A DNA stretch of 53,403 nt from an uncultured Oscillospiraceae bacterium (GTDB taxonomy: Bacteria > Bacillota > Clostridia > Oscillospirales > Oscillospiraceae), in assembly GCA_944387625.1 (NCBI GenBank), contig CALXFQ010000003.1:1-53403 (forward strand). Reading direction: 5' to 3'. The notes below the pieces were generated by a model that saw only the letters and a list, made by a program, of their open reading frames with translations, was not told the origin of the DNA and made no database searches. Numbering within the stretch: position 1 is the stretch's first letter; each line of letters begins with the position of its first letter. Below are positions 28,954-49,715 of the stretch, piece by piece. The translations under genes and the position numbers were made by a program.

Positions 28954-28976
28954 AGAAGTTGATCCTACGACAAACG

Positions 28977-29014
28977 CAGGGGTCAGGCGCATCGCCTGAC
29001 CCCTGTATTTTTTT
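28977..29014 (+). terminator. Terminator of the ECF/methyltransferase unit
   Basis: CAGGGGTCAGGCG, CAT, CGCCTGACCCCTG, then TATTTTTTT. It lies between convergent genes and may also stop the PqqD-like transcript. Confidence 0.95.
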
Positions 29015-29053: not shown

Positions 29054-29326
29054 TCAAGCCTCCTCCACCAGAAGCTGGTGCTGCCGAAGCTGGTCCAGGA
29101 AGCTCTCCACATCCTGTTGGGCGGTCTGGGGATCGACTTCATACTCCTCCAGCACCGCGTCCACCAAGGACTGGACGGTCTGCTCCTGCTGGAGCTTCTC
29201 GAACAGGAACCGGCTCACCGGGTCCAGGCTGATGATGCCATAAAACTTCTTGGCCGCCTCCCCGGTGGGGATGGCCACCACTTCGTCCATCACTTCCCGG
29301 ACGCAAAATTCATTCAAGATCCGCAT
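29054..29326 (-). CDS. PqqD-like RiPP recognition protein
   Basis: The 90-residue protein matches the PqqD fold: an N-terminal strand-rich part (MRILNEFCVREVMDEVVAIP) followed by helices with FLFEKLQQEQTVQSLVDAVL and EVDPQTAQQDVESFLDQL. Such stand-alone RREs bind the leader of a precursor peptide and present it to a radical SAM enzyme. Such an enzyme lies 5 kb away, beyond a large glycosidase gene. GAGGG precedes the start at 29326. It has its own promoter and is cut off from the upstream operon by a terminator, so its link to the cassette is inferred. Confidence 0.88.
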   Translation of the reverse strand: MRILNEFCVREVMDEVVAIPTGEAAKKFYGIISLDPVSRFLFEKLQQEQTVQSLVDAVLEEYEVDPQTAQQDVESFLDQLRQHQLLVEEA

Positions 29327-29356
29327 GGGTATTCCCTCCCTCATTTCTATGGGTCG

Positions 29357-29433: not shown

Positions 29434-32400
29434 TCAGTTCAGCAGGTCGTTGTAGCGGACATACTGTACATCGGAGTAGACATACACCGTCTTGCCGGTG
29501 TCGGGATCCACATAGCTCAGGAAGGCCCGCACAGCATAGAGGGTAGTGCCGTAGGTCGGGGACATCTGATAGGTGAAGGAACCGTCCTCCTGGATGCTCC
29601 TGAAGCTCACACGGGTACGGCCCGGCGTCTTGACGTGGAGCACCCGATTGCCCAGCTGGAACTTATACATATACAGCAAGCCGCGGGAAGTGACCTCGTA
29701 GTAGTCATCCTTGTTTTCGTGATCCTCGAACACGCCGGTGAGGACCAGCTTGCCGGTGTCGGGATCGGCCGTCACCTTCAGGGACACGGTGGGGGCCTTC
29801 AGCTCCTTCACAAAGGGGATGCTCTCGGTCTTGGTGCCGCCGCAGACGGTACAGGTGTAGGTCCTGATGCCACCTTCGCTTTCGGTAGGCTCCTTGGTGA
29901 CCACGCCCTCGTCCCAGCTGTGGCCCTTGGCGGCGACCACGGAGCCGGTGGCGATCTTGGCGCCGCAGTCGGTGCAGTAGGTGTCGCCGGTGTAGCCCGT
30001 GGTCTCACAGCCAGCCTCCACCTTATCCCGGACCTGGGTATGCTGGTGGCCGGTGGCGGTGATCACGGTGCCCAGCTCGATCACCTTCTGGCAATCGATG
30101 CAATAGATGTCGCCGGTGTAGCCGTTCTCGGTGCAGGTGGCTGCCTTTAGGTTGCGGATCTCGGTGTTTGCATGGGCGCAGCCGTCCAGGGTCACCTGAT
30201 AGGTCTTGGAAGCGGTGCCGTCCTCGGAGAGGGTGATGATCTTCACCACATCATCCTGGGCAGGCAGCACGGTGATGCCGGCGTTGACATCGGAGGTGGC
30301 GGTGACGGTGGAACCGGCGGCGGTGTAGGCCAGGGTATCGGCAGAGAAGTCCGCCAGGGCGGTGCCGTCCACGGCGATGCCGGACAGGTCGGCGGAGGAA
30401 TTATACTCCAAAGTGGTGGCGGCGGTGTAGAGCTCCAGCTCGGTGACGCCTACACAGTTTAAGCCGCTGGTGCCGTTTTGCTGCTGGAAGGTCACCTTCA
30501 GGTACACCGGGTTGATGGTCTGATCGAAGGTGTAGCTGTAGCAGGCACCCAGGGAGTAGCTCTCCTCCAGGGTCTCGGCGGAACCCACAGTCTGGTAAAT
30601 GGTACCGTCCAGAGAGTACTGGAAGGTGACGGACTGGGGCTTGGCACAGCAGTTGTCGTAGTAGTAGTAGATCGTGGCGCTGCTCAAACTCTGAGCGGTA
30701 TCCCAGCGGAAGGTCAACGTGGCCGTATCGGAAGTGTACCGATTGTTCCAGTTGGTCCAGCGCTCGGAGGTGTTGTCCCCGGGCTTCTGGGTGCCGTTGA
30801 TCACAGAGCGCAGCACATCGGTGGTGTGGGTCACATCCTCGGTCAGATCGGCGGCCATGGGGGCCACGTTGGTGCTGCCCACCACCACCGGCTCCGCCAC
30901 GCGGACGGTGCAGGTCACCGGCAGGGTCTCCTCCCCGAAGATCACCGCGGTGCCGCTGACGGTAACGATGTTGCCTGCGGTGGCGAATCGGCTGGCGTTC
31001 ACATCCTCCCAGGTCACGGTGAACTCCCCGGAGGTCGTACCATCCGCCAGGAGGCCGGTAGCGGTACTGGGCAGGGTGGGCACGGTGCCTTCAGCGGTGA
31101 CGGTGGAAATGTTCCGCAGGGCGATCACATTGTCGATCACATGGAGCCGGGCGGTTACCGGGATCGGATCATAGCCCTCAAAGGTCAATGTACCGGTGAT
31201 GGTGTAGTCCCCGGCCACGTTGTACAGCTCATCGGAGATCGGCTCCCAGGCGATGGTGCCGGTGATGGTCTTGCCGTTGCCCAGGGTGCCGGTGGCGGCG
31301 GTGTCCAGCGTGGGAGCGGTCCCCACCTTCACGGTGTAGTCCCGGATCATGGCGTAGCTGACCAGGTCCGTATCCGCCGCTTCCTCGCCGGTGGGGGTGG
31401 TGGTGACGGTGACGGCGTCCTGAACAAGGCCATTGGAGGACACGGTCACGGTGAAGGACCCGGCCTCCTCAGTGGACTGGACGATCACCAGCGCCTTGCC
31501 GGCGTAAGCGGCGATCTGGGCGGAGGTATCGGAGAAGAGGACGGAAGCCTGCTGATACTTGGCGGTGGTGGCCTGGTCACCGTTGTCCACAGCCAGGATC
31601 TTCCCGTTGCCGGTAAGGCTGATGTTGATGGTGTTGGTGGCGGTGGTGTCCAGGTTGCCGCTGTTGTCGGTCACGTCCACCCAGATGTAGGCCAGGCTGG
31701 AACCGTCGGCCGGGATCTGGGTCTTATTCTGGTAGGCCAGGAGCTGATAAGCGGCATCGGGGGTGGACACGGCATTGCGGCCGCTGTTGCCGGAGAGGGC
31801 GATCTCGTTGCCGCTTTCGTCGAAGGCTTTGGCGTAGATGGTGCCGGATTCATAGGTCACGTTGAACACGGCGTACAGCCCATCCGCGCCGGTGCCGGAG
31901 GAGGTGGTGCAGATGGAAGAGTCATTGCTCTGGGTGGTGTAGGTGTAGTAGGTGTGACCGGCATGGGAAGTGACCTCGTTCCGGGTGGCGGTGCCGATCA
32001 ATTCGCCGTTGCGGTACAGCTTGACCTTCGGGGCGTTGGAGTACACCCACACCGGGGTCTTGCCGTTGGTGGTCATCATGTTGTCGGCGTCCCAGGCGGT
32101 GACCAGGTGGAGGGTGGTCTGGGACTTGTTCCACTGGCTCCGATAGAGGTAGTAGGTGTCCTTCTCAAAGCCGGTGGTCTCTACGATGCCGAAATAGGAG
32201 CTGTTGGGGTAAGCGCCTGCGCCGGAAACGGAGCCGGTGACGGTGCCGTTCCAGGGGGTGGGCTCGCCCAGGTAGTCGAAGCCCGTCCAGACGAACTCAC
32301 CGGCCACGCAGTCGTACTGATAGGTGTTGTAGATGGAGTCGTGGGCGGTGATGCCCCAGCCCACGGCGGAGGTATCGTAGGAGGTCAGGTGATACTTGCC

Positions 32401-34110
32401 GTCGGAGTTGGAGTTGTTGTACTGGTTCCGATACTGGCCCCGGCTGTTGGTGTGGGAGGCGGTCTCGGAGGCGATGATCACACCGCCGTAGCGTTGGGCC
32501 AGGTTGTACAAGGTGGCGGCGGAGTTGGCGTAGTTGAAGCCCACCACACCGCCGGCTTCCAAGATGGTGTTCAGCACATCCACCAGCCGGGAATCGCCGC
32601 CCCGGTTGTTGTCGCCGTTGGTCACCGGGCGGGAGCCGTCTTCGTCTTTGACCCAGGTGATGTAGTCCGCGCAGATCTCATCGTAGCGGCCCACATTGTT
32701 CCAGTTGGTGCCCTCCTGGATCTCGTTGCCGAAGGACCAGGCGATGACGGACGGGGCATTCCTGTCCCGGCGGACGGTGGACCGGGCGGCGTACTCGGCG
32801 CAGGTCATGCCGCTGGAAGCGCCGTAGAGGCCCGTATCCACGGACTGCTCAAAATAGCCGGAAAAGTCATTGGTGTTGCTGTTCTTGGCGTCCACCAGGC
32901 CATCGAAGGTCTCTTCGATCACCAGCAGGCCCAGCTCGTTGCAGATGGCGATAAAGTCCTCATCCGCCGGGTTGTGGGCGGTACGGATGGCGTTGCAGCC
33001 CATATCCTTCATGATGGACAGCTGGCGGTACATGGCGTCATAGTAGGCGGCAGCGCCCAGGCCGCCCTGGTCGTGGTGCATACAAACGCCGTTGAGCTTC
33101 ACATTCTCGCCGTTGAGGTGGAAGCCGGTGCGGTCGAAGCTGAAATACCGGAAGCCGAACTCGGTATCGTAGGTATCCACCACTTCCCCGTCCACGGTCA
33201 GCTCGGTACGCAGGATGTACAGCGCAGGGTCCTCGATGGACCACAGCGCGGGGGACGTGACCACCGGGCTGGCGGTGGTGTCCGCGCTGGAACCGGGGGC
33301 CACGGTGACGGCGGTACTGGCAGAAGCCAGCGCCTCGCTGGAGCCCTTCTTGTACACGGTGTTCGTCACGGTGACGCTGGCGGAGGAATCACCGTCATTG
33401 ACCACGGTGACCTGGCCCTTCACCAAGCCCCGGGTGGGACTGGTGGTCTGGGCAATGTTGGGGGTGGTGATCTGGGTGCCGTTCAGGTCCACATGGACCG
33501 GGTCCAGGACGAACAGGGTCACGTCCCGGTAGATGCCGGAGCCGGAGTACCAGCGGCTGGAGGGCAAGTTGTTCACCGCTTTCACGGCGATCACGTTCTC
33601 GGTCTTGCCGTCGCAGATCAGGTAGTCGGTGATGTCGAAGGCAAAGGCGGTGTAGCCGTAGTGATGCTCGCCCACCTTGGTGCCGTTGACATAGACGTAG
33701 GCGTGCATATATACACCGTCAAAATTCAGCAGGAAGGTCTTCCCCCCGTCGCTTTCCGGCAGGGTAAAGCTCTTCCGATACCAGCCCGTACCGCCGGGCA
33801 GGAAGCCGGACTCGGCCTCCCCGGAGGTGGTGTAGCTCTGGGTGATGCTGAAATCGTGGGGCAGATCAACGCTCTCCCAAGAAGAGTCATCGAAATTTAC
33901 GTTCTGGGCGCTGGAATTGTCCCCCAGATCAAATTTCCAGCCCTTGTTGAAATCACGTTCTCTGCCATCTTCTTGGGCGGTCTGAATGGTCTCCTGGTCT
34001 CCCAAGATGGTCTCGCCGATCGCCAGGGCACTGCCGGGGGCCAATGACAGCAGCATGACCATACACAGTACCATGGAAACGATCCGCTTGAAGTTCGTTT
34101 TACTTTCCAT
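29434..34110 (-). CDS. Large secreted glycoside hydrolase family 2 protein
   Basis: The 1558-residue protein has a signal peptide (about 1-31). The GH2 parts follow in order: sugar-binding beta-sandwich, Ig-like domain and TIM barrel. The predicted acid/base Glu is in SFGNEIQEG near residue 462 and the nucleophile Glu in GEFVWTGFDY near 602. After about residue 780 come Ig-like domains, an F5/8C-like galactose-binding domain and cysteine-rich Cys-x2-Cys repeats (YCIDC, YCTDC, YTCTVCGG). The architecture suggests a beta-galactosidase-like enzyme acting on host or plant glycans; no sortase signal is seen. GAGGAATCATT sets the start. It is 60 bases after the radical SAM gene, without an intervening terminator. 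Confidence 0.92.
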   Translation of the reverse strand: MESKTNFKRIVSMVLCMVMLLSLAPGSALAIGETILGDQETIQTAQEDGRERDFNKGWKFDLGDNSSAQNVNFDDSSWESVDLPHDFSITQSYTTSGEAESGFLPGGTGWYRKSFTLPESDGGKTFLLNFDGVYMHAYVYVNGTKVGEHHYGYTAFAFDITDYLICDGKTENVIAVKAVNNLPSSRWYSGSGIYRDVTLFVLDPVHVDLNGTQITTPNIAQTTSPTRGLVKGQVTVVNDGDSSASVTVTNTVYKKGSSEALASASTAVTVAPGSSADTTASPVVTSPALWSIEDPALYILRTELTVDGEVVDTYDTEFGFRYFSFDRTGFHLNGENVKLNGVCMHHDQGGLGAAAYYDAMYRQLSIMKDMGCNAIRTAHNPADEDFIAICNELGLLVIEETFDGLVDAKNSNTNDFSGYFEQSVDTGLYGASSGMTCAEYAARSTVRRDRNAPSVIAWSFGNEIQEGTNWNNVGRYDEICADYITWVKDEDGSRPVTNGDNNRGGDSRLVDVLNTILEAGGVVGFNYANSAATLYNLAQRYGGVIIASETASHTNSRGQYRNQYNNSNSDGKYHLTSYDTSAVGWGITAHDSIYNTYQYDCVAGEFVWTGFDYLGEPTPWNGTVTGSVSGAGAYPNSSYFGIVETTGFEKDTYYLYRSQWNKSQTTLHLVTAWDADNMMTTNGKTPVWVYSNAPKVKLYRNGELIGTATRNEVTSHAGHTYYTYTTQSNDSSICTTSSGTGADGLYAVFNVTYESGTIYAKAFDESGNEIALSGNSGRNAVSTPDAAYQLLAYQNKTQIPADGSSLAYIWVDVTDNSGNLDTTATNTINISLTGNGKILAVDNGDQATTAKYQQASVLFSDTSAQIAAYAGKALVIVQSTEEAGSFTVTVSSNGLVQDAVTVTTTPTGEEAADTDLVSYAMIRDYTVKVGTAPTLDTAATGTLGNGKTITGTIAWEPISDELYNVAGDYTITGTLTFEGYDPIPVTARLHVIDNVIALRNISTVTAEGTVPTLPSTATGLLADGTTSGEFTVTWEDVNASRFATAGNIVTVSGTAVIFGEETLPVTCTVRVAEPVVVGSTNVAPMAADLTEDVTHTTDVLRSVINGTQKPGDNTSERWTNWNNRYTSDTATLTFRWDTAQSLSSATIYYYYDNCCAKPQSVTFQYSLDGTIYQTVGSAETLEESYSLGACYSYTFDQTINPVYLKVTFQQQNGTSGLNCVGVTELELYTAATTLEYNSSADLSGIAVDGTALADFSADTLAYTAAGSTVTATSDVNAGITVLPAQDDVVKIITLSEDGTASKTYQVTLDGCAHANTEIRNLKAATCTENGYTGDIYCIDCQKVIELGTVITATGHQHTQVRDKVEAGCETTGYTGDTYCTDCGAKIATGSVVAAKGHSWDEGVVTKEPTESEGGIRTYTCTVCGGTKTESIPFVKELKAPTVSLKVTADPDTGKLVLTGVFEDHENKDDYYEVTSRGLLYMYKFQLGNRVLHVKTPGRTRVSFRSIQEDGSFTYQMSPTYGTTLYAVRAFLSYVDPDTGKTVYVYSDVQYVRYNDLLN

Positions 34111-34170
34111 AATGATTCCTCTTTCTCTCTTTTTTATGGATACCCTTTTCAGGGACATCAACACAGGAAC

Positions 34171-35334
34171 TCAGGGCACGCAAATATCGGGCATGGGCTG
34201 CTCCATGGTGGGCAGCTCCTCCACGTCCGGGTAGTGGGCCCGGGCCAGCTCCACATAGTGTCTGGCCGAGGCCTGGTTCATACGGCACAAATATTCCGGC
34301 CGCTCCCTGCCGTCGCCACATTCGTTGCGGACCATGGCGATACAGGTGTGGCATAGATGGGCATTGGGGCACTGGGCGCAGGGGGAATCGTAGACGACCT
34401 GGGCGGTGTGGTCGGTAAGCGCCTGCCAGGCCTGGTCGAAAGGCTTGTCCTCCAGGGAGATCTGAGCGGTGCTGTACATTCCGCAGCCGTCCAGCCTCCC
34501 CTGCCAGTCCACCCAGAAAGAGCACACGCCTGCCCGGCAGACCATGTTCTGGGACACAGGCTCTCCCACCGGGCCCAACCGATCCAGGGGCACGAACCGG
34601 CCAAACCGCTTGGCCTGGCCCACAAAGAACTCAGGCTCCGCCTGGAGCAGGTCGTTGCGGACCCGGGCCAGCCCTGCCTCCTCCGGGGAGAGCCGGTGGT
34701 TCCTGCCCACCATGGAGCTGTCCCGGCGGGTGGGGGGGAACATATAGGTGGCCACCTGGAGGGGGATCTGGAGCTTCCGCGCGAAGGCCACCATGTCGTC
34801 AAGCTCCGCCACGTTCTCCGGGGTGAGGCTGGCGTTGAACTTCACCGGGATCTGATGCTCCTTCAGCAAAAGAGCCCCTTCTCTGGCCCTGTAGAAGGCG
34901 TCGCCGTCGCCGCAAAGGTCTTGGTAGCTCTGGGCAGAGCCGCCATATAAGGTCAGGTTGATCCGCAGGGGCCGATGGTCTGTGAACCAGCGGACCCAGT
35001 CCCGGTCGATCAGGGTGCCGTTGGAATTGATGCTCACCTGCATCCCCAGCTGATTCATCCCGTCCAGGATCACGCGGAAGTCAGGATGGAGCAAAGGCTC
35101 ACCGCCGGTGAGCAAGGGATAGACCAGACCCAGCTCCCGGGCCTGGCGGGCGATGTCCAGCCACCATTGGCCGTCTTTCAGGCCCCCGGCGGCCCGGACC
35201 TCTGCCATGGACTTGCGGACATAGCACATTTTACAGCTCAGATTGCAAACGGGCAGCAGCTCCAGGGCGCACATCACAGGCAACCGCAGGGCGCTGGCCT
35301 TTCTGATCAGTCTGTCTTGCAGTTTATTTCTCAT
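34171..35334 (-). CDS. Radical SAM/SPASM peptide-modifying enzyme
   Basis: The 387-residue protein has the radical SAM cluster motif CNLSCKMC (Cys 30, 34, 37) and the TGGEPLLHPD motif. A C-terminal SPASM region has at least seven cysteines (CRAGVC, DGCGM, CAQCPNAHLCHTC, YLCRMN) for auxiliary [4Fe-4S] clusters. This build is shared by sactisynthases, PqqE and other RiPP enzymes. The start overlaps the kinase-like gene stop as ATGA, so the two are coupled. A small peptide gene upstream is the likely substrate; the modification is unknown. No RRE is obvious in it, fitting use of a separate PqqD-like protein. Confidence 0.93.
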   Translation of the reverse strand: MRNKLQDRLIRKASALRLPVMCALELLPVCNLSCKMCYVRKSMAEVRAAGGLKDGQWWLDIARQARELGLVYPLLTGGEPLLHPDFRVILDGMNQLGMQVSINSNGTLIDRDWVRWFTDHRPLRINLTLYGGSAQSYQDLCGDGDAFYRAREGALLLKEHQIPVKFNASLTPENVAELDDMVAFARKLQIPLQVATYMFPPTRRDSSMVGRNHRLSPEEAGLARVRNDLLQAEPEFFVGQAKRFGRFVPLDRLGPVGEPVSQNMVCRAGVCSFWVDWQGRLDGCGMYSTAQISLEDKPFDQAWQALTDHTAQVVYDSPCAQCPNAHLCHTCIAMVRNECGDGRERPEYLCRMNQASARHYVELARAHYPDVEELPTMEQPMPDICVP

Positions 35335-36194
35335 GAGATCACTCCGTCTGCGGTCAGAGCCTGGTGGAGGCACCGTACCGCGCTTTCGTCAGGTAGACAG
35401 TATAATTCGTAAACGGGGGCCAGGTCCAAGATCCTCAAAAGCAATGCGGAAGCGGCGGTCATGGCCGTCGGATCCCAGGGATCGATCAGCATCATGGGCA
35501 TGAGCTTGGATAAGGCTTCGCCCGGCCGAAGCCGGCGGACCCGATCCTCCGGGCCTTGATGGAGGACCACCAGCGCCCCCAGAGGGGCAGCACGGTTGGT
35601 GCGGATCGGCTCGGAGCCATCCATGGGGCAGCCGTAGCACAGCCCATTGCGGATCAGCACCCGGTCGTTGCACAGGATCTGAGCACCCAGATGCCTGGCC
35701 CAAAGCTTGGCCTGGGTGGTCTTGCCGGTCCCGGAGGGGGCGGTAAATACGATCCCCTTCCCTCCATAGAACACCTGGGAGGCGTGGAGGAAGGCGACTC
35801 CGCTTTTAAGCAGGATCTGGCGGATCGGCATGAACCGAAATATATGCTCTAACGAAGCGATCGGAGCGGAGAAGGGCCGCTCGTTGATAAAACAACAAAT
35901 GTTTGAAAAATCATCCCCACAGACCGAGAGCGCCAAATATCCCTTCTTGCCTTCCAGACAAGCCACCAGTACAGTATCGTCCTGGACGTAAAATGTCTGG
36001 ATCATATCCATACCCGCAGGCTTGGTCGTCGGCAAGGGTGCGGAAGAAAAATCATAGCGCACCTGAATCGTTACGAGGCGGTCAAAGTCGGTGGGCTTTA
36101 TAAAAGGGTCCAGCAGGGTACCGCTGGTCAATTCCCGGGGAGAGGTGACCTGCAGCCGCACGCCGCCCATATAAATATCGTATCGAAAGATCAT
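35331..36194 (-). CDS. HPr-kinase-like protein of a RiPP cassette
   Basis: The 287-residue protein has a P-loop APSGTGKTT (152-160) and a downstream acidic CNDRVLI (175-181), as in HPr kinase C-terminal domains, plus a PIRTN block. It lacks the HPr-kinase N-terminal domain and the usual ptsH context. Related proteins occur beside radical SAM or lasso-peptide genes; one phosphorylates the terminal serine of a precursor. No clear ribosome site precedes either possible start (36194 or 36170), so initiation may be weak or coupled. A long hairpin separates it from the precursor gene. Confidence 0.8.
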   Translation of the reverse strand: MIFRYDIYMGGVRLQVTSPRELTSGTLLDPFIKPTDFDRLVTIQVRYDFSSAPLPTTKPAGMDMIQTFYVQDDTVLVACLEGKKGYLALSVCGDDFSNICCFINERPFSAPIASLEHIFRFMPIRQILLKSGVAFLHASQVFYGGKGIVFTAPSGTGKTTQAKLWARHLGAQILCNDRVLIRNGLCYGCPMDGSEPIRTNRAAPLGALVVLHQGPEDRVRRLRPGEALSKLMPMMLIDPWDPTAMTAASALLLRILDLAPVYELYCLPDESAVRCLHQALTADGVIS

Positions 36195-36223
36195 ATAAAA
36201 GGTAAAAAAAGGAAGGTAATTTA

Positions 36224-36253
36224 GGGGCCGGCAGGCAAGAGCCTGCCGGCCCC
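36224..36253 (-). terminator. Attenuator-like hairpin after the precursor gene
   Basis: GGGGCCGGCAGGC, TCTT, GCCTGCCGGCCCC: thirteen perfect pairs. A T7 run occurs about twelve bases further on rather than directly after, so partial termination is likely. This would give more precursor than enzyme mRNA. Confidence 0.75.
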
Positions 36254-36288
36254 ATCATATCGATGCGATCCGATCGCGAGTGGAATAT

Positions 36289-36549
36289 TTAACTCGTCCA
36301 GTAGCCGTAGTCAGTGGACGACACATAGCAGTCGCAGCCGGTATCGTCGTAGAAGGTTACATTGTACACCGGGGCGTTCTGGATGGAAATGCTGTCCCGG
36401 AAACCGAAGGGAGCAACATACTCATCACACAGCGGATGATTCCCCATTGCCGGTCCGCTGTTGACCACGATTGCACAGTTGCTGGCGATGGACTGGCTCA
36501 TCTCGTAGGTCTGGAATTCCGGCACAGGGGCAGAATACACTTTCTTCAT
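36289..36549 (-). CDS. Candidate RiPP precursor peptide
   Basis: The 86-residue peptide has no signal sequence. The N-terminal part (MKKVYSAPVPEFQTYEMSQS) resembles leaders of clostridial peptides that pair with radical SAM and PqqD proteins. The second half is rich in Tyr, Asp, Ser and Gly, has cysteines at 41, 72 and 74 (another at 25), and ends DYGYWTS with a C-terminal Ser. AGGAGGAAAGAAACG precedes the ATG. It lies 29 bases after the giant surface protein gene and directly before kinase-like and radical SAM genes. No maturation peptidase or exporter is adjacent. The role is inferred from size, position and composition. Confidence 0.75.
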   Translation of the reverse strand: MKKVYSAPVPEFQTYEMSQSIASNCAIVVNSGPAMGNHPLCDEYVAPFGFRDSISIQNAPVYNVTFYDDTGCDCYVSSTDYGYWTS

Positions 36550-36578
36550 CGTTTCTTTCCTCCTTACTGCTGGTTTTC

Positions 36579-39500
36579 TCAGCCGACGATCTCTTCGTTG
36601 TTGACAATGGTGAACTCGGCGGTACCGGTGACCTTGATGTTGGTCAGGGAGATCAGGTGTCCATCAGCCGCAGCGATCACAAACGTAGCAGTCTGGGTGC
36701 TGTCGGCATTGGTGGTCACATCGGCATAGTCGGAGATCTCAAAGTAGCAGTCCGCCGCGTTGCTCAGGTCCAGGGAATGTCCGTTGATCACCACAGTACC
36801 GCTGCCATTGGGCACCTTGATGCCCAGGAACACATGGTTAGCGTCGGCGTCCCACTTGTCCAGGGCGAAGGACACAGACTGACCACCGTACAGATAGACC
36901 TCTTCCTTAGGACCGAAGCTCACATAGTCCTGAGCGTTGACCATCTGGCCATTGTTATCGGTGAAGAGGATGAAGTTATCATCTTTCCCCCAAACCGCGT
37001 TGCCGGACTCATCGACCGTGGCCTCACTGATCAGCTTATCCCGCACCGTGGCAAACACCATGTTTTGCTCACCGTCGGTGTCGTAGGCAATCTGGGCCAG
37101 GGAGATCCGATTATCCTCCGTATCCTCGAAAGAGGTGTCCAGGGGGTTCATGACCCGGATGCCGTCCAGGAAGAACTTACCGCCAAATATCGGCTCTCCA
37201 TTCTGATCCCGGACAATAGAAGCGTTGGCGATAGAAACCTCCACGGTATACGTGCCGTAGCCACGTTCATTATCCTCCGCGTCCCAGGTGAACACGGGGA
37301 TATTGTAGAGGTAGCCGTTCGCATCCAAAACACTACCGGTAGTTTCAGTAGGCTTGTAAATGGTGTTGCGCATGTAGGTAGCCACGACCGTGTCCCCCTG
37401 CTTGATCACGACTTTCATGTAGCCGGTATCCTGGCCCATCCGGCCAAAGAAGGAAGTTCCGGTGCCGGTGAAGGTGTAGCTAAAGGAGGCCGTGCTGTTG
37501 GACACATCCACGAACTTGGACGAACCGTTGCTGTCGCGGCTGTCGTTCTTGTAGGCCACATCGGAGCCGTAGGGGCTGTCGTCCACGGTGCCCACCACGC
37601 CAGGCTCTTGATGCTCGGTCTGGGCGGTGCCCGCAGTCTTCCAGTCACCACTGAAATCCACAAAGTTCCCAAAGTCCTCTTCATAATACATGGAAGTGGC
37701 GGGGAAAATGTAGACCTTGGCCTGGCGGGTAACGATCTCGCCATCACCCTCCACGGTGATCGTATAGGTCAGGACCTCCGGGACAGTCAGCTGCTCGGTC
37801 AGGGTGTAGACGAGCTTGTTGTCCACGATCTGAACCGTGCCATATCGCGCGGGGGTGACTTCAGACAGGGTCATGGAGTGGCCGCGCCAGACGTCATTGG
37901 CCAGCACATCGATCTCCACGCTCAGGCCGTAGTCGATCACGATCTGGTCGTTCATAGGCCGGGCGGAGGGGTTGGGCAGGGTGGTGTTGAGGAAGTTCTC
38001 ACAAACGATCTCCAGAGAATCGTTGGAACCAGGGTCACCGTGGACGGCGATCACGTTGCTCAGGTTGATCGTTTCATACGGATCGAGGATGCCCTTGTCA
38101 GGGATATCAGCAGCCTGCGGGGCTTTGCCCAGCTCATTGAATTCGTCTCCTTCGCGCACATCGTCCGGGCCGGTGATGCCGTAGGTGTAGCCACTGGCGG
38201 CAGTGCCGGAGTAGCTCCAATTGGTGTAGCTGAACAGGTAGGTCTTATTGCCGCTTCCGTCGTCGCTTACGTTGTCCGGGATGATCTCCTCCACACGGTA
38301 ATAGTCTTTGTCAGTCAGCTCGATGTTGAACCTGGCAGTCTGACCATTGGAAAGTCTGAAGATGCCGTCTTTGGAAGTGGCAGGCGTGGAAAGAATCTGG
38401 CCGTTCACATCCAGCAGGTTGTAGTTGGCGTTTGCCACAGGCTCGTAAGCCCCGTGAGCGGCATTATACTTAGTGAGGATGTAGTAGTTGCTGATCTTGT
38501 CCACGGTGGCCTGCTCCGCAGGGGTCAGGGGGGACAGTTCGCCCTCATCCATCTCATTGTTATTATTCTTGTCCGTCCAAGACTGAGTGGCACGCTTGGT
38601 GACGGACAGGGTATCGTTCATGGGCAGGTTGAACTCGATCTTACAGTTGGAAGAACCGGCGCCACGCTCCAAGTAGAACACGGTCAGGGTGTGCTCCGAG
38701 GTGGCGGCGAAAGACTCCCGGGTCTGGCCCAGAATACCGGCGCCCGGACGATCATCATTAAACAGCTTGCCGTTGAGTGCAGCGTCGTTGTAATCATCCA
38801 CTGGAAAACCAGGCGGATCCTCATTTTCGCCTGCGTCATTATTCTCCCAGATCTCCCAGGAGTTTGCGGCAAAGTCCAAGGTCAGGTTCAGGCGGTTGTG
38901 GATGCCGCCCAAGTCGCCCACCAGGATGCCGTCGATGAACACCCACACGTCATCGTCGCCGGAGAACTTGAAGGTGATCGCTTCAGAATCAGGATTGGTA
39001 GGGTTAACTCTGCCATTGGCCGTCATGGTGAAGGGCAGGACCGCCTGCATACCAAAGTGGTAGTCACAGTTGGTTTCGCCGTCGATGGTCCGGGTGCTGT
39101 TGAAAGGCATCCAAACCGTCTTGCTGCCATCGCCATAGCTACCTCCGTTGGACTGAGGGCCCGTCGCATCAAAATACAGCCGGCCGTTGGACCGGGCCGT
39201 GGTGGAGCCCTGGGCAGCGTCTTTCTTAAAGTACACGCCGTTGGCGGAGGCATCGAAGGTGTACATGCCGGTCTCAGAATTAAAGGTAAAGGGCATCTCC
39301 ACGTTGGTGTAAACGGTCTTGCCGCTGACAGCGGTGGTGGTGAACAGGCCGGGGTCGGTCTTGGTCAGGATCAGCTCCTTCCTGGGGCTCAGCAGGGGCT
39401 CCACAAGGCCGGAGTAGGTATACTGGCCCGTTCTGTTGGTGTCCCCACCCTTTTTCCAGAAGTTCCACTCCGCATAGGGCAGGCTGTCGGTGGTGTCCGT

Positions 39501-40373
39501 AGAAGAAACATTCTCCTTCAACTGGTAGATGTAGAAGCGACTGCCGGGGTCATTTTCACCAGACTCATCCCATGCAGAAAAAACGCCCAAATAATCGTGG
39601 CTGTTCAGCCAGTAGCGGTCTCCATTTCCAATGCTGACGCTATTGTCACCATGGCCAGCATCCTCGATCACCAGGTCGTCATGAGAGCCGCTCACACGGA
39701 CGTCCCACTCTTGGATGTTTTTTCTGTAGAATTGGATGTACTGTTCACCGGTGTAGATGTGATAGTTCCCATCGTCCTGCTTTTCGATGGTCCACTTGGT
39801 AGCCCTCTGGATGGCCGTATTACCGGTGTCCACATGCGCACCCTTGGAAGGGGCTACCTGACCATCGGTGGCCAGGATCTTACCTGTTCCTGAAATATAG
39901 CCGGCCTTCATGGTGCGGTAGTTGACGATCACATACTCCCCGGTAGCCGTGATCTCATCCAGGCTCACGGGGACCCAGGCACTCTCGGTACCGCCAGTTT
40001 CATAAACGAAGCTCTCAGCGGCGGGGGTGCCGCTGTTGAAGTACATACCGTTCCACCGGGTCAGGTTGCTGATGCCACCAGCAGCCAGCGCGGCATCCAC
40101 TTCCATCTGGTGGGTGACGGCGTTGATCTCGTCGGTATCATAGTTGTACAAGGTCACCGGGAAATACACCAGCTCCGTTCCGTTGGCGGCATTGGTGGCG
40201 GCGGTATCGGTGCTGTTAGTCTCCAGACCGTCCCCGGACCAACGGCCCAGCAGGCGGGACCACATCGTTCCGGCCCAGTCGCCGCTGAACGGGACTGCGC
40301 CGACCGTCTGCCACAGCATACACACCGCCAGCAGGACGGTCAGAACACGGATACAAATCGTTCTTTTCATCAT
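36579..40373 (-). CDS. Large secreted fibro-slime-domain surface protein
   Basis: The 1264-residue protein has a signal peptide (about 1-28, ending TVGAVP). The central part contains the fibro-slime hallmark KFSGDDDVWVFIDGILV followed by GDLGGIHNRLNL near residue 480. Later come a pilin-like Cna-B-type stretch, a VLANDV Ig-like domain and C-terminal beta-sandwich parts. Fibro-slime domains resemble PA14 and are linked to adhesion or sugar binding. No LPXTG or S-layer motif is visible, so anchoring is unclear. The start at 40373 follows GGGAGG (40370 is also possible). It is first in the operon and may be functionally tied to the peptide behind it. Confidence 0.85.
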   Translation of the reverse strand: MMKRTICIRVLTVLLAVCMLWQTVGAVPFSGDWAGTMWSRLLGRWSGDGLETNSTDTAATNAANGTELVYFPVTLYNYDTDEINAVTHQMEVDAALAAGGISNLTRWNGMYFNSGTPAAESFVYETGGTESAWVPVSLDEITATGEYVIVNYRTMKAGYISGTGKILATDGQVAPSKGAHVDTGNTAIQRATKWTIEKQDDGNYHIYTGEQYIQFYRKNIQEWDVRVSGSHDDLVIEDAGHGDNSVSIGNGDRYWLNSHDYLGVFSAWDESGENDPGSRFYIYQLKENVSSTDTTDSLPYAEWNFWKKGGDTNRTGQYTYSGLVEPLLSPRKELILTKTDPGLFTTTAVSGKTVYTNVEMPFTFNSETGMYTFDASANGVYFKKDAAQGSTTARSNGRLYFDATGPQSNGGSYGDGSKTVWMPFNSTRTIDGETNCDYHFGMQAVLPFTMTANGRVNPTNPDSEAITFKFSGDDDVWVFIDGILVGDLGGIHNRLNLTLDFAANSWEIWENNDAGENEDPPGFPVDDYNDAALNGKLFNDDRPGAGILGQTRESFAATSEHTLTVFYLERGAGSSNCKIEFNLPMNDTLSVTKRATQSWTDKNNNNEMDEGELSPLTPAEQATVDKISNYYILTKYNAAHGAYEPVANANYNLLDVNGQILSTPATSKDGIFRLSNGQTARFNIELTDKDYYRVEEIIPDNVSDDGSGNKTYLFSYTNWSYSGTAASGYTYGITGPDDVREGDEFNELGKAPQAADIPDKGILDPYETINLSNVIAVHGDPGSNDSLEIVCENFLNTTLPNPSARPMNDQIVIDYGLSVEIDVLANDVWRGHSMTLSEVTPARYGTVQIVDNKLVYTLTEQLTVPEVLTYTITVEGDGEIVTRQAKVYIFPATSMYYEEDFGNFVDFSGDWKTAGTAQTEHQEPGVVGTVDDSPYGSDVAYKNDSRDSNGSSKFVDVSNSTASFSYTFTGTGTSFFGRMGQDTGYMKVVIKQGDTVVATYMRNTIYKPTETTGSVLDANGYLYNIPVFTWDAEDNERGYGTYTVEVSIANASIVRDQNGEPIFGGKFFLDGIRVMNPLDTSFEDTEDNRISLAQIAYDTDGEQNMVFATVRDKLISEATVDESGNAVWGKDDNFILFTDNNGQMVNAQDYVSFGPKEEVYLYGGQSVSFALDKWDADANHVFLGIKVPNGSGTVVINGHSLDLSNAADCYFEISDYADVTTNADSTQTATFVIAAADGHLISLTNIKVTGTAEFTIVNNEEIVG

Positions 40374-40446
40374 GCTTTCCTCCCTTGTTCGCGTATATCG
40401 GGTCGATAAGGGTATAGTATCCCCTCTCGTCCATATCCGTGCCTTT

Positions 40447-40475
40447 ATTATACTCCTATACGCACAGGATTGCAA
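40447..40475 (-). promoter_or_regulatory. Promoter of the surface-protein/RiPP operon
   Basis: TTGCAA (40475-40470), a 17-base spacer and TATAAT (40452-40447). No other strong promoter or terminator is seen on this strand before 29.4 kb except the attenuator. Confidence 0.85.
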
Positions 40476-41953: not shown

Positions 41954-43330
<1,377 letters not shown>

Positions 43331-43340
43331 GGAGGTAGTT

Positions 43341-44129
43341 ATGACCTATTCATATTTCCCCGGCTGTACCCTGAAGACCCGGGGCAAGGACCTGGACACT
43401 TGGGGCCGGGCATCCATGGAGGCCCTGGGCATCCATTTGGAGGAGCTGCCCCAGTGGCAGTGCTGCGGGGCGGTGTATCCCCTGGCAAAGGACGAGATCG
43501 GCAGCCGCCTTTCCGCCGTCCGGGCCTTGGCAGCCGCCCGGGACCTGGGGACGCCCCTGGTGACCCTTTGCTCCGCCTGTCACCATGTGATCAAGCGGAC
43601 CAACTACGACATCCGGCACGACGCCCTCTTCCGGGACCGGGCCAACAACTACATGGCCCCGGACACCGCCTACCAAGGGGAGGCCCAGGTGCTCCACTAC
43701 CTGGAGGTCCTGCGGGACCATGTAGGCTTCGACACGCTGGCCAAAAAGGTGGTCAAGCCCCTTACCGGCCGGAAGATCGGGGCCTACTACGGGTGTCTGC
43801 TCCTGCGGCCCAGCAAGGCCATGGCCTTTGATGACCCGGAAAACCCCACCATTTTGGAGGACTTTATCCAGGCGATCGGCGCCCAGCCGGTCTTCTACGC
43901 CCAGCGCAACGAATGCTGCGGCGGGTATGTGACTTTGGAAGACCCGTCCCTGTCCCAGGCCCGGGCCGGCGCGGTGCTCCACAACGCCGCCGCCCAGGGG
44001 GCGGACACGCTGATCACCGCCTGCCCACTGTGCCTGTACAATCTCCAGAAAAACGGTGGGAAGCTGCCGGTGGTGTATTTCACCGAGCTGCTGGCGGAGG
44101 CTCTGGGACTGAAGGAGGTGCCGGTATGA
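43341..44129 (+). CDS. hdrB: Heterodisulfide reductase subunit B-like (HdrB)
   Basis: The 262-residue protein has the two CCG domains of HdrB: the first with QWQCCGAVYP and LCSACHH, the second with NECCGGYVTL and CPLCLYN. In methanogens these hold two non-cubane [4Fe-4S] clusters that cleave the CoM-CoB disulfide. In bacteria the acceptor differs and is usually unknown. The start 43341 follows GAGGAGGTAGTT; an upstream ATG lies inside fumC. The stop overlaps the next start (ATGA). Confidence 0.93.
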   Translation: MTYSYFPGCTLKTRGKDLDTWGRASMEALGIHLEELPQWQCCGAVYPLAKDEIGSRLSAVRALAAARDLGTPLVTLCSACHHVIKRTNYDIRHDALFRDRANNYMAPDTAYQGEAQVLHYLEVLRDHVGFDTLAKKVVKPLTGRKIGAYYGCLLLRPSKAMAFDDPENPTILEDFIQAIGAQPVFYAQRNECCGGYVTLEDPSLSQARAGAVLHNAAAQGADTLITACPLCLYNLQKNGGKLPVVYFTELLAEALGLKEVPV

Positions 44130-44512
44130 GCCAATGGACGGACACGATCCGGCAGATCTCCGGGGTCGATCCCCGGAAGTGTATGAAATGCGGCAAATGC
44201 ACCGCCACCTGCCCGGCCTATGACCATATGGAGTATCACCCCCACCAGTTCGTGGACATGGTGACCACCGGCCGGGTGGAGGAGCTGATGGCGTCCAAAG
44301 GGATCTACACCTGCCTGACCTGCTTTGCCTGTGTGGAGCGCTGCCCCAGGAGCGTGGAGCCGGCGGCGATCATCGAAGCGGTGCGCCTGGCGGTGATCCG
44401 CCAACAGGGCGGCAACCACATGACGCCGGACCAGATCCCCGGGCTGCTGGATGAGGAGCTTCCTCAGCAAGCCATCACCAGCGCCCTGCGCAAGTACAGC
44501 AAGGGAGGTTAA
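44126..44512 (+). CDS. hdrC: Heterodisulfide reductase subunit C-like (HdrC)
   Basis: The 128-residue protein carries two [4Fe-4S] motifs, CMKCGKCTATCP near 19-30 and CLTCFACVERCP near 63-74, matching the short ferredoxin-like HdrC that links HdrA to HdrB. The start is coupled to the hdrB stop by a four-base overlap and is preceded by GAAGGAGGTGCCGGT. Confidence 0.93.
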   Translation: MSQWTDTIRQISGVDPRKCMKCGKCTATCPAYDHMEYHPHQFVDMVTTGRVEELMASKGIYTCLTCFACVERCPRSVEPAAIIEAVRLAVIRQQGGNHMTPDQIPGLLDEELPQQAITSALRKYSKGG

Positions 44513-44514
44513 GT

Positions 44515-46506
44515 ATGCAAAGGATCGGTGTATTCGTATGCTGGTGCGGCAGCAACATCGCCGCCACCGTGGACGTGGTCCAGGTGGCCCAGGCCCTGGC
44601 AAAAGAGCCAGGGGTGGTGTTCGCCACCGACTATCAATATATGTGTTCCCAGGCCGGTCAGGACCTGATCGGGGCGGCGATCAAGGAGCATGGGCTCACC
44701 GGCGTGGTGATCTGCTCCTGCTCCCCCCGGATGCATGAGACCACCTTCCGCAAGACCTGCCAGAAGGCGGGCCTGAACCCCTACATGGTGGAGATCGCCA
44801 ACATCCGGGAGCATTGCTCCTGGATCCACAAGGACAAGCCCACCGCCACCGAGAAGGCGGTGATCTTGGGCCGGGCGGCGATCGCCAAGGTCCACCTGAA
44901 CGCCCCCCTCACCGCCGGCACCAGCCCGGTGACCAAGCGGGCGCTGGTGATCGGCGGCGGCATCGCCGGCATCCAGACCGCTCTGGACATCGCCGACGCG
45001 GGATTCCCCGTGGACATCGTGGAGAAAAAGCCCACGATCGGCGGCAAGATGACCCAGATCGACAAGACCTTCCCCACATTGGACTGCGCCGCCTGCATCC
45101 TCACCCCGAAGATGGTGGACGTGTCCCAGAACGAGAAGATCGATATCATCTCCTACGCCCAGGTGGAAAAGGTCCAGGGCTTCGTAGGCAATTTCTCCGT
45201 GACCATCCGCAAGAAGGCCCGGTATGTGGACGAGAGCAAGTGTACCGGCTGTGGACTGTGTACGGAAAAATGCCCTCAGAAAAAGGTCCCCAACGAGTTC
45301 AACCTGGGGCTGGATACCCGCCGGGCGATCTACATCCCCTTTGCCCAGGCGGTGCCCAAGGTGGCCACCATCGACCCGGACTACTGCTCCATGCTCAAGT
45401 CCGGCAAGTGCGGCGTGTGCGCCAAGGTCTGCGCCGCCGGGGCGATCGACTACAAACAGCAAGATGAGCTGATCACCCGGGAGTACGGCGCGATCGTGGT
45501 GGCCACCGGCTTCGAGCCGATCGGCATGGACAAGTTCGACGAGTTCGCCTACGCCCAAAGCCCGGACGTGGTGACCAGCCTGGAGCTGGAGCGGCTGATG
45601 AACGCGGCCGGTCCCACCGGCGGCACCTTGCTCCGGCCCTCCGACGGCACCCATCCCCACACCCTGGTATTCGTCCAGTGCGTAGGCTCCCGGTGCGACG
45701 GTGGGGAGAAGGGCAAGCCCTACTGCTCCAAGATCTGCTGTATGTACACCGCCAAGCACGCCATGCTGATCCGGGACAAGTACCCGGATACGGAGGTCTA
45801 CGTCTTCTACATCGACGTTCGGACCCCGGGCAAGAACTTCGACGAGTTCTACCGCCGGGCGGTGGAGGAATACGGCGTGCACTACATCAAAGGCATGGTG
45901 GGCAAGGTCACGCCCCAGGACGGCAAGCTGAAGGTCCAGGCCAGCGATCTGCTGGGCGGCCGTCAGCTCCATATCGACGCGGATATGGTGGTGCTGGCCG
46001 CCGCCATCGAGCCGGACAAGTCCGCCCGGCCCCTGGCGACCATGCTCACCGCCTCCATGGATACCAACGACTTCTTCACCGAGGCCCATCCCAAGCTCCG
46101 GCCGGTGGAGAGCCCCACGGCGGGCATCTTCCTGTCCGGCGCCTGCCAAGGCCCCAAGGACATCCCGGAGACCGTGGCCCAGGCGGGGGCCGCCGCCAGC
46201 AAGGTGATCGGCCTGCTCTCCAAGGACGCCCTTACCTGCAACCCCTGCACCGCCCAGCCGGACGAGCTCAAGTGCAACGGCTGCTCCTCCTGTGAGAACG
46301 TGTGCCCCTACGGCGCCATCAGCTACATCGACAAGCCCTTCCGCGGCCCGAACCGGACCACATTGATCCGGCGGGTGGCCCAGGTCAACCCGGCGGTGTG
46401 CCAGGGCTGCGGCGCGTGCACCGTGGCCTGTCCCTCCGGCGCGATGGACCTGCAGGGCTTCTCCAACAAACAGATCATGGCGGAGGTGGATGCGATATGC
46501 AGATGA
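44515..46506 (+). CDS. hdrA: Heterodisulfide reductase subunit A-like flavoprotein (HdrA)
   Basis: The 663-residue protein has the HdrA order: an N-terminal cysteine-rich part with VICSCSPRMHE and IREHCSW, a thioredoxin-reductase-like FAD domain (VIGGGIAGIQ near 144), an inserted ferredoxin part (CTGCGLCTEKCP near 243, CGVCAKVC near 303) and C-terminal clusters (CNGCSSCENVCP, CQGCGACTVACP). HdrA is the flavin centre where electron bifurcation occurs in Hdr complexes. GGGAGGTTAAGT precedes the start, two bases after hdrC. Confidence 0.94.
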   Translation: MQRIGVFVCWCGSNIAATVDVVQVAQALAKEPGVVFATDYQYMCSQAGQDLIGAAIKEHGLTGVVICSCSPRMHETTFRKTCQKAGLNPYMVEIANIREHCSWIHKDKPTATEKAVILGRAAIAKVHLNAPLTAGTSPVTKRALVIGGGIAGIQTALDIADAGFPVDIVEKKPTIGGKMTQIDKTFPTLDCAACILTPKMVDVSQNEKIDIISYAQVEKVQGFVGNFSVTIRKKARYVDESKCTGCGLCTEKCPQKKVPNEFNLGLDTRRAIYIPFAQAVPKVATIDPDYCSMLKSGKCGVCAKVCAAGAIDYKQQDELITREYGAIVVATGFEPIGMDKFDEFAYAQSPDVVTSLELERLMNAAGPTGGTLLRPSDGTHPHTLVFVQCVGSRCDGGEKGKPYCSKICCMYTAKHAMLIRDKYPDTEVYVFYIDVRTPGKNFDEFYRRAVEEYGVHYIKGMVGKVTPQDGKLKVQASDLLGGRQLHIDADMVVLAAAIEPDKSARPLATMLTASMDTNDFFTEAHPKLRPVESPTAGIFLSGACQGPKDIPETVAQAGAAASKVIGLLSKDALTCNPCTAQPDELKCNGCSSCENVCPYGAISYIDKPFRGPNRTTLIRRVAQVNPAVCQGCGACTVACPSGAMDLQGFSNKQIMAEVDAICR

Positions 46507-46937
46507 ACCAGGAATTCAAGCCCACCATCGTGGCATTTTGCTGCAACTGGTGTTCCTACGCCGGCGCGGACCTGTCCGGCACCAACCGGCTCCAATATCC
46601 GGCCAACGTGAAGATCATCCGGATCCCCTGCTCCTGCCGGCTGAACCCCATGTTCATCCTGCGGGCCTTCCAGCGGGGGGCGGACGGGGTGATCTTGTGC
46701 GGCTGCCACCCCGGCGACTGCCACTACACCACCGGCAACTACTATGCCCGCCGCCGGATGACCCTGCTGTTCTCCCTGCTGGACTATATGGGCATCGAGC
46801 GCCAGCGGACCCGGGTGGAGTGGGTCTCCGCCGCCGAAGGCGCCAAGTTCGCCGCGACCATGAACGACTTTGTGGATACCATCACCAAGCTGGGGCCCAA
46901 CCGTAGACTGGAGGACTTAAGATGCAAGAGCGAGTGA
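46497..46937 (+). CDS. flxD: MvhD/FlxD-type iron-sulfur subunit
   Basis: The 146-residue protein matches the MvhD family (PF02662), with IVAFCCNWCSYAGAD at the start and the CGCHPGDCHYTTGN motif near 68, which bind a [2Fe-2S] cluster. It passes electrons between HdrA and the electron-input module. Two starts are possible, 46497 (better spacing from GGAGGT) and 46503 (ATGA overlap with the hdrA stop). Its end overlaps the next gene. Confidence 0.92.
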   Translation: MQMNQEFKPTIVAFCCNWCSYAGADLSGTNRLQYPANVKIIRIPCSCRLNPMFILRAFQRGADGVILCGCHPGDCHYTTGNYYARRRMTLLFSLLDYMGIERQRTRVEWVSAAEGAKFAATMNDFVDTITKLGPNRRLEDLRCKSE

Positions 46938-47896
46938 TCGAAAAAGCCGCCCAGCTCCTGGAGTCCGGCGCCTGCGCCCGGGTCCTGGGCTGGAAGACCG
47001 GCGAATTTTTCTACGATGTGACCCCGGCGGTGTTCACCTCCGCCCAGCAGGTCCGTCAGGAGATGGTCTTCTCCCCCTTCTGCGGGGCGAACCTGTCCAA
47101 ATACCTGATCGCCGAGAGCCGGAAGGAGGGCAAGGTGGGGGTGTTCCTGAAGCCCTGCGACAGCTTCTCCTTCGTCCAGCTCCAGAAGGAGCACCGGATC
47201 TTGCGGGAGAATGTGTACGCCGTAGGCGTGCAGTGCCAGGGCATGAGCGATATCGAGGCCCTGAAGGCCCTGGGCCTGCGGGGCATCACCGCCGTCCAGG
47301 CGGAGGAGGACCGGCTCACCGTGTCCACGTTGTACGGCGAAAAGACCGTGGCGCTGGAAGAGGCCCTGTCCCTTCGGTGCCGCAGCTGCAAGAGCCGGGC
47401 GCTCCACGACTGCGACGAGCTGATCGGGGACCAGGGCCGGGATCTGGACACCGACCGCTTCGGGGAGGTGGCCCGGCTGGAAGCCATGTCCCCGGAGGAG
47501 CGGTTCGCCTTCTGGCGCAGCCAGCTTTCCAAGTGCATCCGCTGCAACGCCTGCCGGAACGTGTGTCCCGCCTGCTCCTGTGAGAAGTGCGTGTTCGACG
47601 ACCCCAACTCCGGCGTCCAGAACAAGGCCGCCGCGGACCCCTTCGAGGAGGACCTGTTCCACATCATCCGGGCCTTCCATGTGGCCGGACGGTGTACGGA
47701 CTGCGGCGAGTGTACCCGGGTCTGCCCCCAGCACATCCCGCTGCACCTGCTCAACCGCAAGCTGATCAAGGATATGAACGCGCTGTACGGCCCTTATCAG
47801 GCAGGCAGCGACTTTGACAGCAAGCCCCCCATGCTCACCTTCACCCAGGAGGACCCGGAGGCATCGATCATCACGGAAGGGAGGGGCATCCAATGA
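46922..47896 (+). CDS. flxC: FlxC-type 4Fe-4S protein
   Basis: The 324-residue protein has an N-terminal FrhB-like part with KPCDSFSF, then CRSCKSRALHDC near 157, and two [4Fe-4S] motifs, CIRCNACRNVCPAC near 204 and CTDCGECTRVCP near 259. It fits the FlxC subunit of FlxABCD-HdrABC complexes. It overlaps the preceding gene by 16 bases and the following one by four. Confidence 0.85.
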   Translation: MQERVIEKAAQLLESGACARVLGWKTGEFFYDVTPAVFTSAQQVRQEMVFSPFCGANLSKYLIAESRKEGKVGVFLKPCDSFSFVQLQKEHRILRENVYAVGVQCQGMSDIEALKALGLRGITAVQAEEDRLTVSTLYGEKTVALEEALSLRCRSCKSRALHDCDELIGDQGRDLDTDRFGEVARLEAMSPEERFAFWRSQLSKCIRCNACRNVCPACSCEKCVFDDPNSGVQNKAAADPFEEDLFHIIRAFHVAGRCTDCGECTRVCPQHIPLHLLNRKLIKDMNALYGPYQAGSDFDSKPPMLTFTQEDPEASIITEGRGIQ

Positions 47897-48891: not shown

Positions 48892-49715
48892 GGACCGATC
48901 CGTTGATCCCCATGGTCGCCCAGGTCACCCATATCCGCACCGACACCCCGGATGTAAAGACCTTCCGGGTGGTGGGCCCGGACGGGAAGAAGCCCTTTGC
49001 CCATATCCCCGGCCAGTGCGCCATGCTGTCCATGCCCGGTGTGGGGGAGGCCCTGTTCTCCATCACCTCCTCCCCCACCAATGAAGAATATCTGGAATTT
49101 TCCATCAAAAAATGCGGCTGCGTCACCAGTTGGATCCACGCCATCGAGCCGGGCCAGCAGGTGACCCTCCGAGGCCCCTACGGCAACGGTTTCCCGGTGG
49201 ATACGGACTTTGCCGGTAAGGACCTGGTGTTCATCGCCGGCGGCATCGGCCTGGCCCCTCTTCGGTCGGTGATCAACTACGTCCGCCACTATCGGGACCG
49301 CTACGGCGCGGTGGACATCGTCTACGGCGCCAGGAGCAAGGCGGACCTGGTGGACTACGAAGAGATCTTGCAGGAGTGGTGCCAGGAAGATGGCATCCGC
49401 GTCCATCTGACCATCGACAACGCCCAGCCCGACTGGGACGGCCATGTGGGGTTCGTGCCCAACTATGTGAAAGAGCTGGGCTTCGACACCGGCAAGACCG
49501 TGGTCATGTGCGGCCCGCCGGTCATGATCAAATTCACCCTGGCGGGCCTGGAGGAGCTGGGCTTCCGGCGGGACCAGGTGTACACCACCTTCGAGCTGAA
49601 GATGAAGTGCGCCCTGGGCAAATGCGGCCGGTGCAACATCGGCGACAAGTATGTGTGCAAGGACGGCCCTGTGTTCCGCCTGGACCAGATGACCGAACTG
49701 CCTGACGAGTACTAA
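48888..49715 (+). CDS. flxA: FlxA-type NADH-dependent flavin oxidoreductase
   Basis: The 275-residue protein has a ferredoxin-reductase fold: an FAD part (PGQCAMLSM, LFSITSSP), a pyridine-nucleotide part (FIAGGIGLAPLRS near 115, VVMCGPPVMIKF near 205) and a C-terminal cysteine group (MKCALGKCGRCN, then Cys) for a [2Fe-2S] cluster, as in dihydroorotate dehydrogenase B subunits. It is the likely NADH entry point. The start overlaps the flxB stop. Confidence 0.9.
   Translation: MRTDPLIPMVAQVTHIRTDTPDVKTFRVVGPDGKKPFAHIPGQCAMLSMPGVGEALFSITSSPTNEEYLEFSIKKCGCVTSWIHAIEPGQQVTLRGPYGNGFPVDTDFAGKDLVFIAGGIGLAPLRSVINYVRHYRDRYGAVDIVYGARSKADLVDYEEILQEWCQEDGIRVHLTIDNAQPDWDGHVGFVPNYVKELGFDTGKTVVMCGPPVMIKFTLAGLEELGFRRDQVYTTFELKMKCALGKCGRCNIGDKYVCKDGPVFRLDQMTELPDEY

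Follow-up and report, generated by a model that had tools for sequence, protein, structure and literature searches.

The window, that is the whole stretch of 53,403 nucleotides analyzed here, carries on its minus strand a run of genes for a giant secreted protein, a small peptide, an HPrK-like protein, a radical SAM (rSAM)/SPASM enzyme, a GH2 enzyme and a PqqD-like protein (Table 1). The peptide, kinase-like and rSAM genes are present as a sequence-only reading of this DNA had described them, including the coupling of the latter two by an ATGA, in which the kinase stop overlaps the rSAM ATG at 35334; the rSAM frame is listed from a GTG at 35373 and its likely start is this ATG. A Shine-Dalgarno-like GGAGG lies nine bases 5' of the peptide start (36559-36563), and 29 nt separate that start from the end of the giant's gene, for which an ATG near 40373 gives a signal-peptide-like start. 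Upstream of the giant a promoter-like site was found (40475-40447, 10/12 matches), of a kind expected by chance in this region. The PqqD-like protein that had been placed about 5 kb downstream of the cassette proved to be genuine; it lies past the GH2 gene, which occurs at the same position in loci L053, L054 and L057 and is conserved in this locus subtype within the genus. It had also been claimed that no exporter or peptidase is present, and this was borne out: the cassette showed neither an exporter nor a leader peptidase, and this genome contains no Peptidase_C39. Export of the double-glycine (C39) type was rejected for that reason, and a clear full-length C39 match was obtained in one of 12 genomes tested. 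The sequence-only reading was silent on the giant, the most constant partner of the peptide gene, and did not mention the hairpin in the gap between the precursor and kinase genes.

Table 1. Features of the locus in the window, followed by related features located in other loci.
Feature	Location	Strand	Description
Giant secreted protein	36579..40475	minus	1298 aa; Fibro_Slime/PA14-like and Big_9 regions
DOM, domain of ~300 aa in the C-terminal region of the giant	36624..37571	minus	iterated HMM
Precursor peptide	36289..36549	minus	86 aa, ATG start; ORF call and translation
GC-rich hairpin, precursor-kinase gap	36224..36253	minus	13 bp; fold -39.2 kcal/mol, z -6.2
HPrK-like peptide kinase (predicted)	35331..36194	minus	287 aa; invariant motifs, profile, fold
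Radical SAM/SPASM enzyme	34171..35334	minus	387 aa from ATG 35334; PF04055 E 1.4e-18
Secreted GH2 beta-galactosidase-like enzyme	29434..34164	minus	1576 aa, between rSAM and PqqD; Pfam Glyco_hydro_2 domains
PqqD-like RRE (leader-binding protein)	29054..29344	minus	96 aa; PF05402 E 3.8e-17
Accessory protein	L060:7249-8070; equivalents in L061-L064, L068, L082, L086, L098, L140, L150
Aromatic basic tails	L060, L061, L064, L098, L140-L142, L145, L146, L154, L216, L221, L223		giant C-termini
Shorter HPrK-like class with PqqD and S24/S26-like peptidase	L105:6149-7601, L106:5791-7224		231-236 aa

A search of the genus recovered the order giant-peptide-kinase-rSAM-GH2 in genomes G018, G042 and G096; in G034 the genes are split between two contig ends, one carrying the giant and the peptide start and the other kinase and rSAM. 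The genus also yielded many more divergent copies. Among 400 genomes of the family, 32 from 14 genera harbor the precursor family, and a search of 391 genomes across the class detected it once outside the family (G819), in a locus of the same type. A new RiPP cassette had been proposed for this DNA, with the co-occurrence of the peptide family with rSAM genes as one test by which the proposal could fail. This co-occurrence was observed, as the rSAM type was present in 29 of the 32 genomes with the precursor and in 8 of the 368 without it (both 29, precursor only 3, rSAM only 8, neither 360; Fisher p 1.6e-33, with phylogeny ignored), which supports the proposal. The rSAM gene lies within 6 kb and on the same strand in 28 of 51 precursor matches. 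The cassette is more than a chance arrangement, since its gene order is found again not only in further species of the genus but also in other genera and in a second family of the class, and since peptide and rSAM type co-occur.

The precursor begins with the leader MKKVYSAPVPEFQTYEMSQSIASNC, and its core contains Cys41, Cys72, the pair Cys74-Tyr75 and the C-terminal Ser86. In an alignment of 37 precursors (A1) Cys25, Cys72 and Cys74 are invariant, while Met1, Tyr5, Pro8, Tyr75 and Ser86 are kept in 90% or more of the sequences. The family consensus derived from the alignments consists of a conserved MKKxYxKP...IAxxC leader, which contains KxYxKP, and a variable core with conserved Cys, CY and Ser positions; the cores otherwise differ strongly from locus to locus. 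The alignments thus describe a family of ribosomal precursors in which the leader is conserved and the core varies, as is characteristic of RiPPs, and a leader-binding RRE and tailoring enzymes are co-inherited with it. Contrary to the earlier description, the precursor can be recognised, by its RRE-type YxxP leader, conserved Cys and CY residues and a near-invariant C-terminal Ser. None of the Pfam or NCBIfam models matches the family convincingly, and a pattern scan of contigs with the single peptide as query returned one distant relative only. One locus (L180:6330-7500) shows a reversed order, with the kinase gene ahead of a precursor that ends in Ser-Tyr and a very large ORF after it.

The hairpin is a recurrent element as well. 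In 37 loci precursor and kinase are at least 40 nt apart, and 33 of these gaps contain a stem of 9 bp or longer; among 370 stretches drawn at random from these loci, 21 do. Rfam gave no match to the hairpin region at the gathering score. Attenuation between a structural peptide and its enzymes is a common layout in RiPP clusters. We infer that the hairpin acts as an attenuator or RNA-processing element; attenuation would yield giant and precursor in excess over the enzymes.

The association of the precursor with the giant was analyzed for the 70 informative precursors, i.e. those with enough upstream sequence. Directly upstream of 52 of them lies a giant ORF (at least 600 aa, ending at most 300 nt away; median gap 15 nt), and about 26% have none in this position. 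The all-enzyme loci L079, L095 and L103 lack a directly upstream giant. The N-terminal parts of the giants differ and comprise PA14-like, VWA and GH20 regions or Listeria-Bacteroides repeats. With an iterated HMM, 51 of the 52 precursor-linked giants were found to share one domain, here termed DOM, which measures about 280-300 aa and in most cases lies close to the C-terminus; the remaining ORF, that of L093, is probably spurious. The copy of DOM in the window is the only one in this genome and matches no Pfam family. Fold searches with DOM gave weak beta-sandwich matches only, some of them to carbohydrate-binding modules, and with low TM-scores, so that no function is claimed for the domain. 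At the C-terminus of many giants, a stretch rich in Pro, Thr and Glu leads into a short tail of aromatic and basic residues (such as AIGSLLKKWFR, LGKLFSRWF, RSISRLFGR); this tail looks like an undescribed terminal element for sorting or membrane binding.

In a first comparison all 16 genomes that have the system, and none of 16 that lack it, contained DOM. Among the 400 family genomes, DOM and precursor occur together in 30, DOM alone in none, the precursor alone in 2 and neither in 368 (Fisher p 3.5e-43, with phylogeny ignored); in one of the two genomes with precursor only the precursor is a marginal match, and in the other it lies near a contig edge. A precursor follows within 2.5 kb downstream of 35 of the 52 DOM matches in this sample. 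The other 17 matches are in genomes that hold the system elsewhere, and most of them belong to two genera. DOM giants lacking a precursor immediately downstream were read by hand, and a strict one-to-one pairing of DOM giant and precursor was not upheld in two genera. In one genus, g79, enzyme-less precursors follow DOM giants while a kinase-rSAM pair is located on another contig, which we read as probable maturation in trans.

In the subtype whose precursors end in CYHVP...LFNS, a conserved accessory protein is encoded between precursor and kinase. It has a single N-terminal hydrophobic (membrane) stretch and an outer domain, which gave no Pfam match in the three copies checked. This topology hints that the product works outside the cell.

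The last residue of the precursor is Ser in 71 of the 75 precursors examined (58 of 59 in the first set); the other four end in Ser-Gly, in Ser-Ala, in Ser-Tyr or at a contig edge. In contrast, the eight most frequent final residues of the 69 kinase, 59 rSAM and 53 PqqD ORFs of the same loci do not include Ser. As the search model for the precursor includes the C-terminus, leader-only matches were checked separately for their Ser end. Four such matches with wholly different cores (L187-L190) are Ser-terminated, as is L194; L191 ends in Ser-Tyr, and L192, which has a marginal score and no enzymes nearby, ends in Trp. Ser is also the final residue of L195, whose match covers most of the model.

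In the HPrK-like protein His137, Gly157-Lys158, Thr160, Asp177 and Arg178 are invariant among 59 relatives. Comparison of its profile with the PDB gave HPrK/P as the sole match (E 0.007), and an AlphaFold model (pLDDT 95) retrieved PEPCK and HPrK/P in a Foldseek search. The folds of PEPCK and HPrK/P are known relatives of each other. The protein shares with the lasso-type kinases the His, the P-loop GK[ST] and the Asp motif, in which the first Asp of their Asp-Asp pair is here Gly or Asn (PMC10368454). In lasso clusters the HPr-kinase homologues act specifically on the C-terminal Ser, which they phosphorylate (PMC8498205). Because the precursors of the present family end in this residue, Ser86 in the window, the HPrK-like protein is likely to phosphorylate it. 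Since one lasso kinase modifies the internal Ser3 and not the last Ser (PMC10368454), Ser86 is put forward as the predicted site. A second, shorter class of HPrK-like proteins (231-247 aa) was considered as a possible mark of lasso clusters and set aside; of the loci read, two contain PqqD and an S24/S26-like peptidase and none an rSAM. L105 and L106, with kinase-like proteins of 231-236 aa, have this arrangement and are a different system in the same genus.

The rSAM enzyme has the features of a SPASM maturase, as CxxxCxxC and all seven SPASM cysteines are invariant in 58 of 58 relatives. Only about 30 residues precede the cluster motif, i.e. the enzyme has no fused RRE. Among solved structures SkfB is the closest, and no maturase equivalog cut-off was reached by the window protein. 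It is about equally close to several thioether and non-thioether families, and its chemistry is therefore not readable from the sequence. In one locus (L187:4811-7071, G411 contig 11) a single precursor and kinase are followed by two tandem rSAM genes of the cassette type. For the PqqD-like profile the best solved relative is TbiB1 (5v1u), the RRE of a lasso peptide (E 2.9e-11). YxxP is the mapped recognition motif of lasso PqqD/RRE domains, and the sactipeptide RRE StsC recognises KPxWxxP (WxxP) (PMC12710340).

The locus was compared with known systems. The likeness to SynChlorMet (NCBIfam TIGR04248-04251) that had been noted earlier extends to the enzyme superfamilies, since HPrK-like, PqqD-like and rSAM/SPASM proteins are combined in one cassette there too and the ScmC and ScmE models are among the matches. 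However, the scores lie far below the curated cut-offs (ScmC 19.1/125, ScmD 26.6/100, ScmE 72.3/400, ScmF 64.4/400 bits), the precursor falls outside every NCBIfam model, and nearly all cassettes have one rSAM where SynChlorMet has ScmE plus ScmF, L187 with its two being the exception. Membership was rejected, and we regard it as very improbable that the locus belongs to this group. Lasso-peptide clusters that carry an HPr-kinase homologue (paeninodin; ThcoK, SyanK) share with the locus a discrete PqqD-like, B1-like RRE, the YxxP leader, the kinase and the Ser end (PMC8498205), and this combination of kinase homologue and discrete RRE is a closer functional parallel than SynChlorMet. That the locus is itself such a cluster is scarcely credible, as a SPASM rSAM takes the place of the B2 protease and C cyclase: PF13471 (B2) gave no match over cut-off in six genomes including this one, and no C macrolactam synthetase was recognised in or next to the cassette. 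In the absence of the B2/C pair from the cassette lasso membership was rejected. Furthermore, the precursor is longer than those of lasso clusters, carries Cys and is linked to giant secreted proteins. Sactipeptide and ranthipeptide cassettes (SkfB, StsB/StsC) resemble the locus in a SPASM rSAM that would act on Cys-bearing cores, in SkfB as nearest solved rSAM and in the WxxP binding of the StsC RRE; they differ from it in that here an HPrK-like kinase, a C-terminal Ser and a giant partner are added and no exporter is present. GeoRSP (TIGR04302/04303) and HPr-rel-A (TIGR04352/04353) likewise combine a PqqD-like protein with an rSAM or HPrK-like partner, and their models match the locus below cut-off. 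In the open-access literature no description of a precursor-kinase-rSAM-giant system was found.

Taken together, the precursor, the HPrK-like kinase, the SPASM rSAM, the PqqD/RRE and the DOM-bearing giant are a co-inherited set. It is highly probable that the locus encodes a RiPP. We consider it fairly likely that it represents an undescribed RiPP family with a product that acts together with the giant surface protein; the working partnership of peptide and giant, taken by itself, would have a slightly better than even chance. A more detailed proposal, made tentatively and falling a little short of an even chance, is that the rSAM-modified and C-terminally phosphorylated peptide serves as a dedicated part (anchor, ligand or cap) of the giants and recognises DOM, with maturation in trans in some species. 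For the fairly likely reading of an undescribed RiPP system the following mechanism is proposed. Giant and precursor would be co-transcribed and abundant, and the hairpin 3' of the precursor gene would lower expression of the enzymes. The PqqD-like RRE would bind the YxKP leader and present the precursor to the enzymes, upon which the SPASM rSAM would install at least one cross-link in the core at the conserved Cys and Cys-Tyr positions, possibly a thioether or a Cys/aromatic link, and the HPrK-like kinase would phosphorylate the C-terminal Ser. Once mature, the peptide would act together with the giant, perhaps by binding DOM at the cell surface as a ligand, an anchor or a cap. One enzyme set appears to serve several dispersed giant-precursor pairs in trans in some genera.

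The RiPP might instead be a free secreted one, a bacteriocin or signal, with giants that merely share its operon and have no functional tie to it. The three all-enzyme loci without a giant directly upstream would fit such a product, and cores that vary this much between loci are seen in antagonistic peptides. We nevertheless hold it to be rather unlikely, though worth keeping in mind, as giants of otherwise different architecture share a single domain, DOM was found in no sampled genome without the precursor, and the precursors of one genus have kept the giant and not the enzymes; nor was an immunity gene or exporter recognised. Another explanation reverses the roles: the small ORF would encode a chaperone, immunity or regulatory partner of the giant, and rSAM and kinase would modify the giant, e.g. 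its DOM. The position of the small ORF directly behind the giant recalls effector/immunity layouts and DOM is indeed co-inherited with the enzymes, but the peptide has an RRE-type leader, conserved Cys and a near-invariant C-terminal Ser like that of the known kinase substrate, and the hairpin separates it from the enzymes. Moreover, a Sec-type signal peptide is present on the giant but on none of the enzymes, which should be cytosolic. This explanation therefore appears improbable. An immunity protein of a toxin-like giant, considered separately for the peptide, was rejected since leader, Ser end and enzyme linkage do not fit.

RiPPs are usually seen as free small molecules that act as antibiotics, signals or cofactors. 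Under the preferred reading, of a product that works with the giant, the situation would be different, as the precursor gene is tied to giants via a domain found only in precursor-bearing genomes (400 sampled). If this tie is functional, gut bacteria would use rSAM chemistry and phosphorylation of a C-terminus to make part of their surface, and for a whole group of orphan HPrK-like kinases the substrate could be tested directly. The motif shared by the precursors (YxKP leader, CY, C-terminal Ser) offers a way to find such clusters, for which Pfam and NCBIfam hold no precursor model.

Apart from the cassette, further features were observed in the window and in related loci. GH20 enzymes adjoin the cassette in L148, L097 and L153, like the GH2 enzyme in the window, and these neighbours may indicate that the loci are tied to glycan use. 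Downstream of the PqqD-like gene a hairpin of 13-14 bp with a T-run on the plus strand (28976-29006) is likely to be a terminator between this gene and a convergent methyltransferase gene. On the plus strand, positions 41954-52022 harbor an operon-like run that encodes a fumarase-type lyase, a Cys-rich CCG protein and several [4Fe-4S] and FAD proteins; it represents heterodisulfide-reductase-like electron transfer and is unrelated to the RiPP locus.
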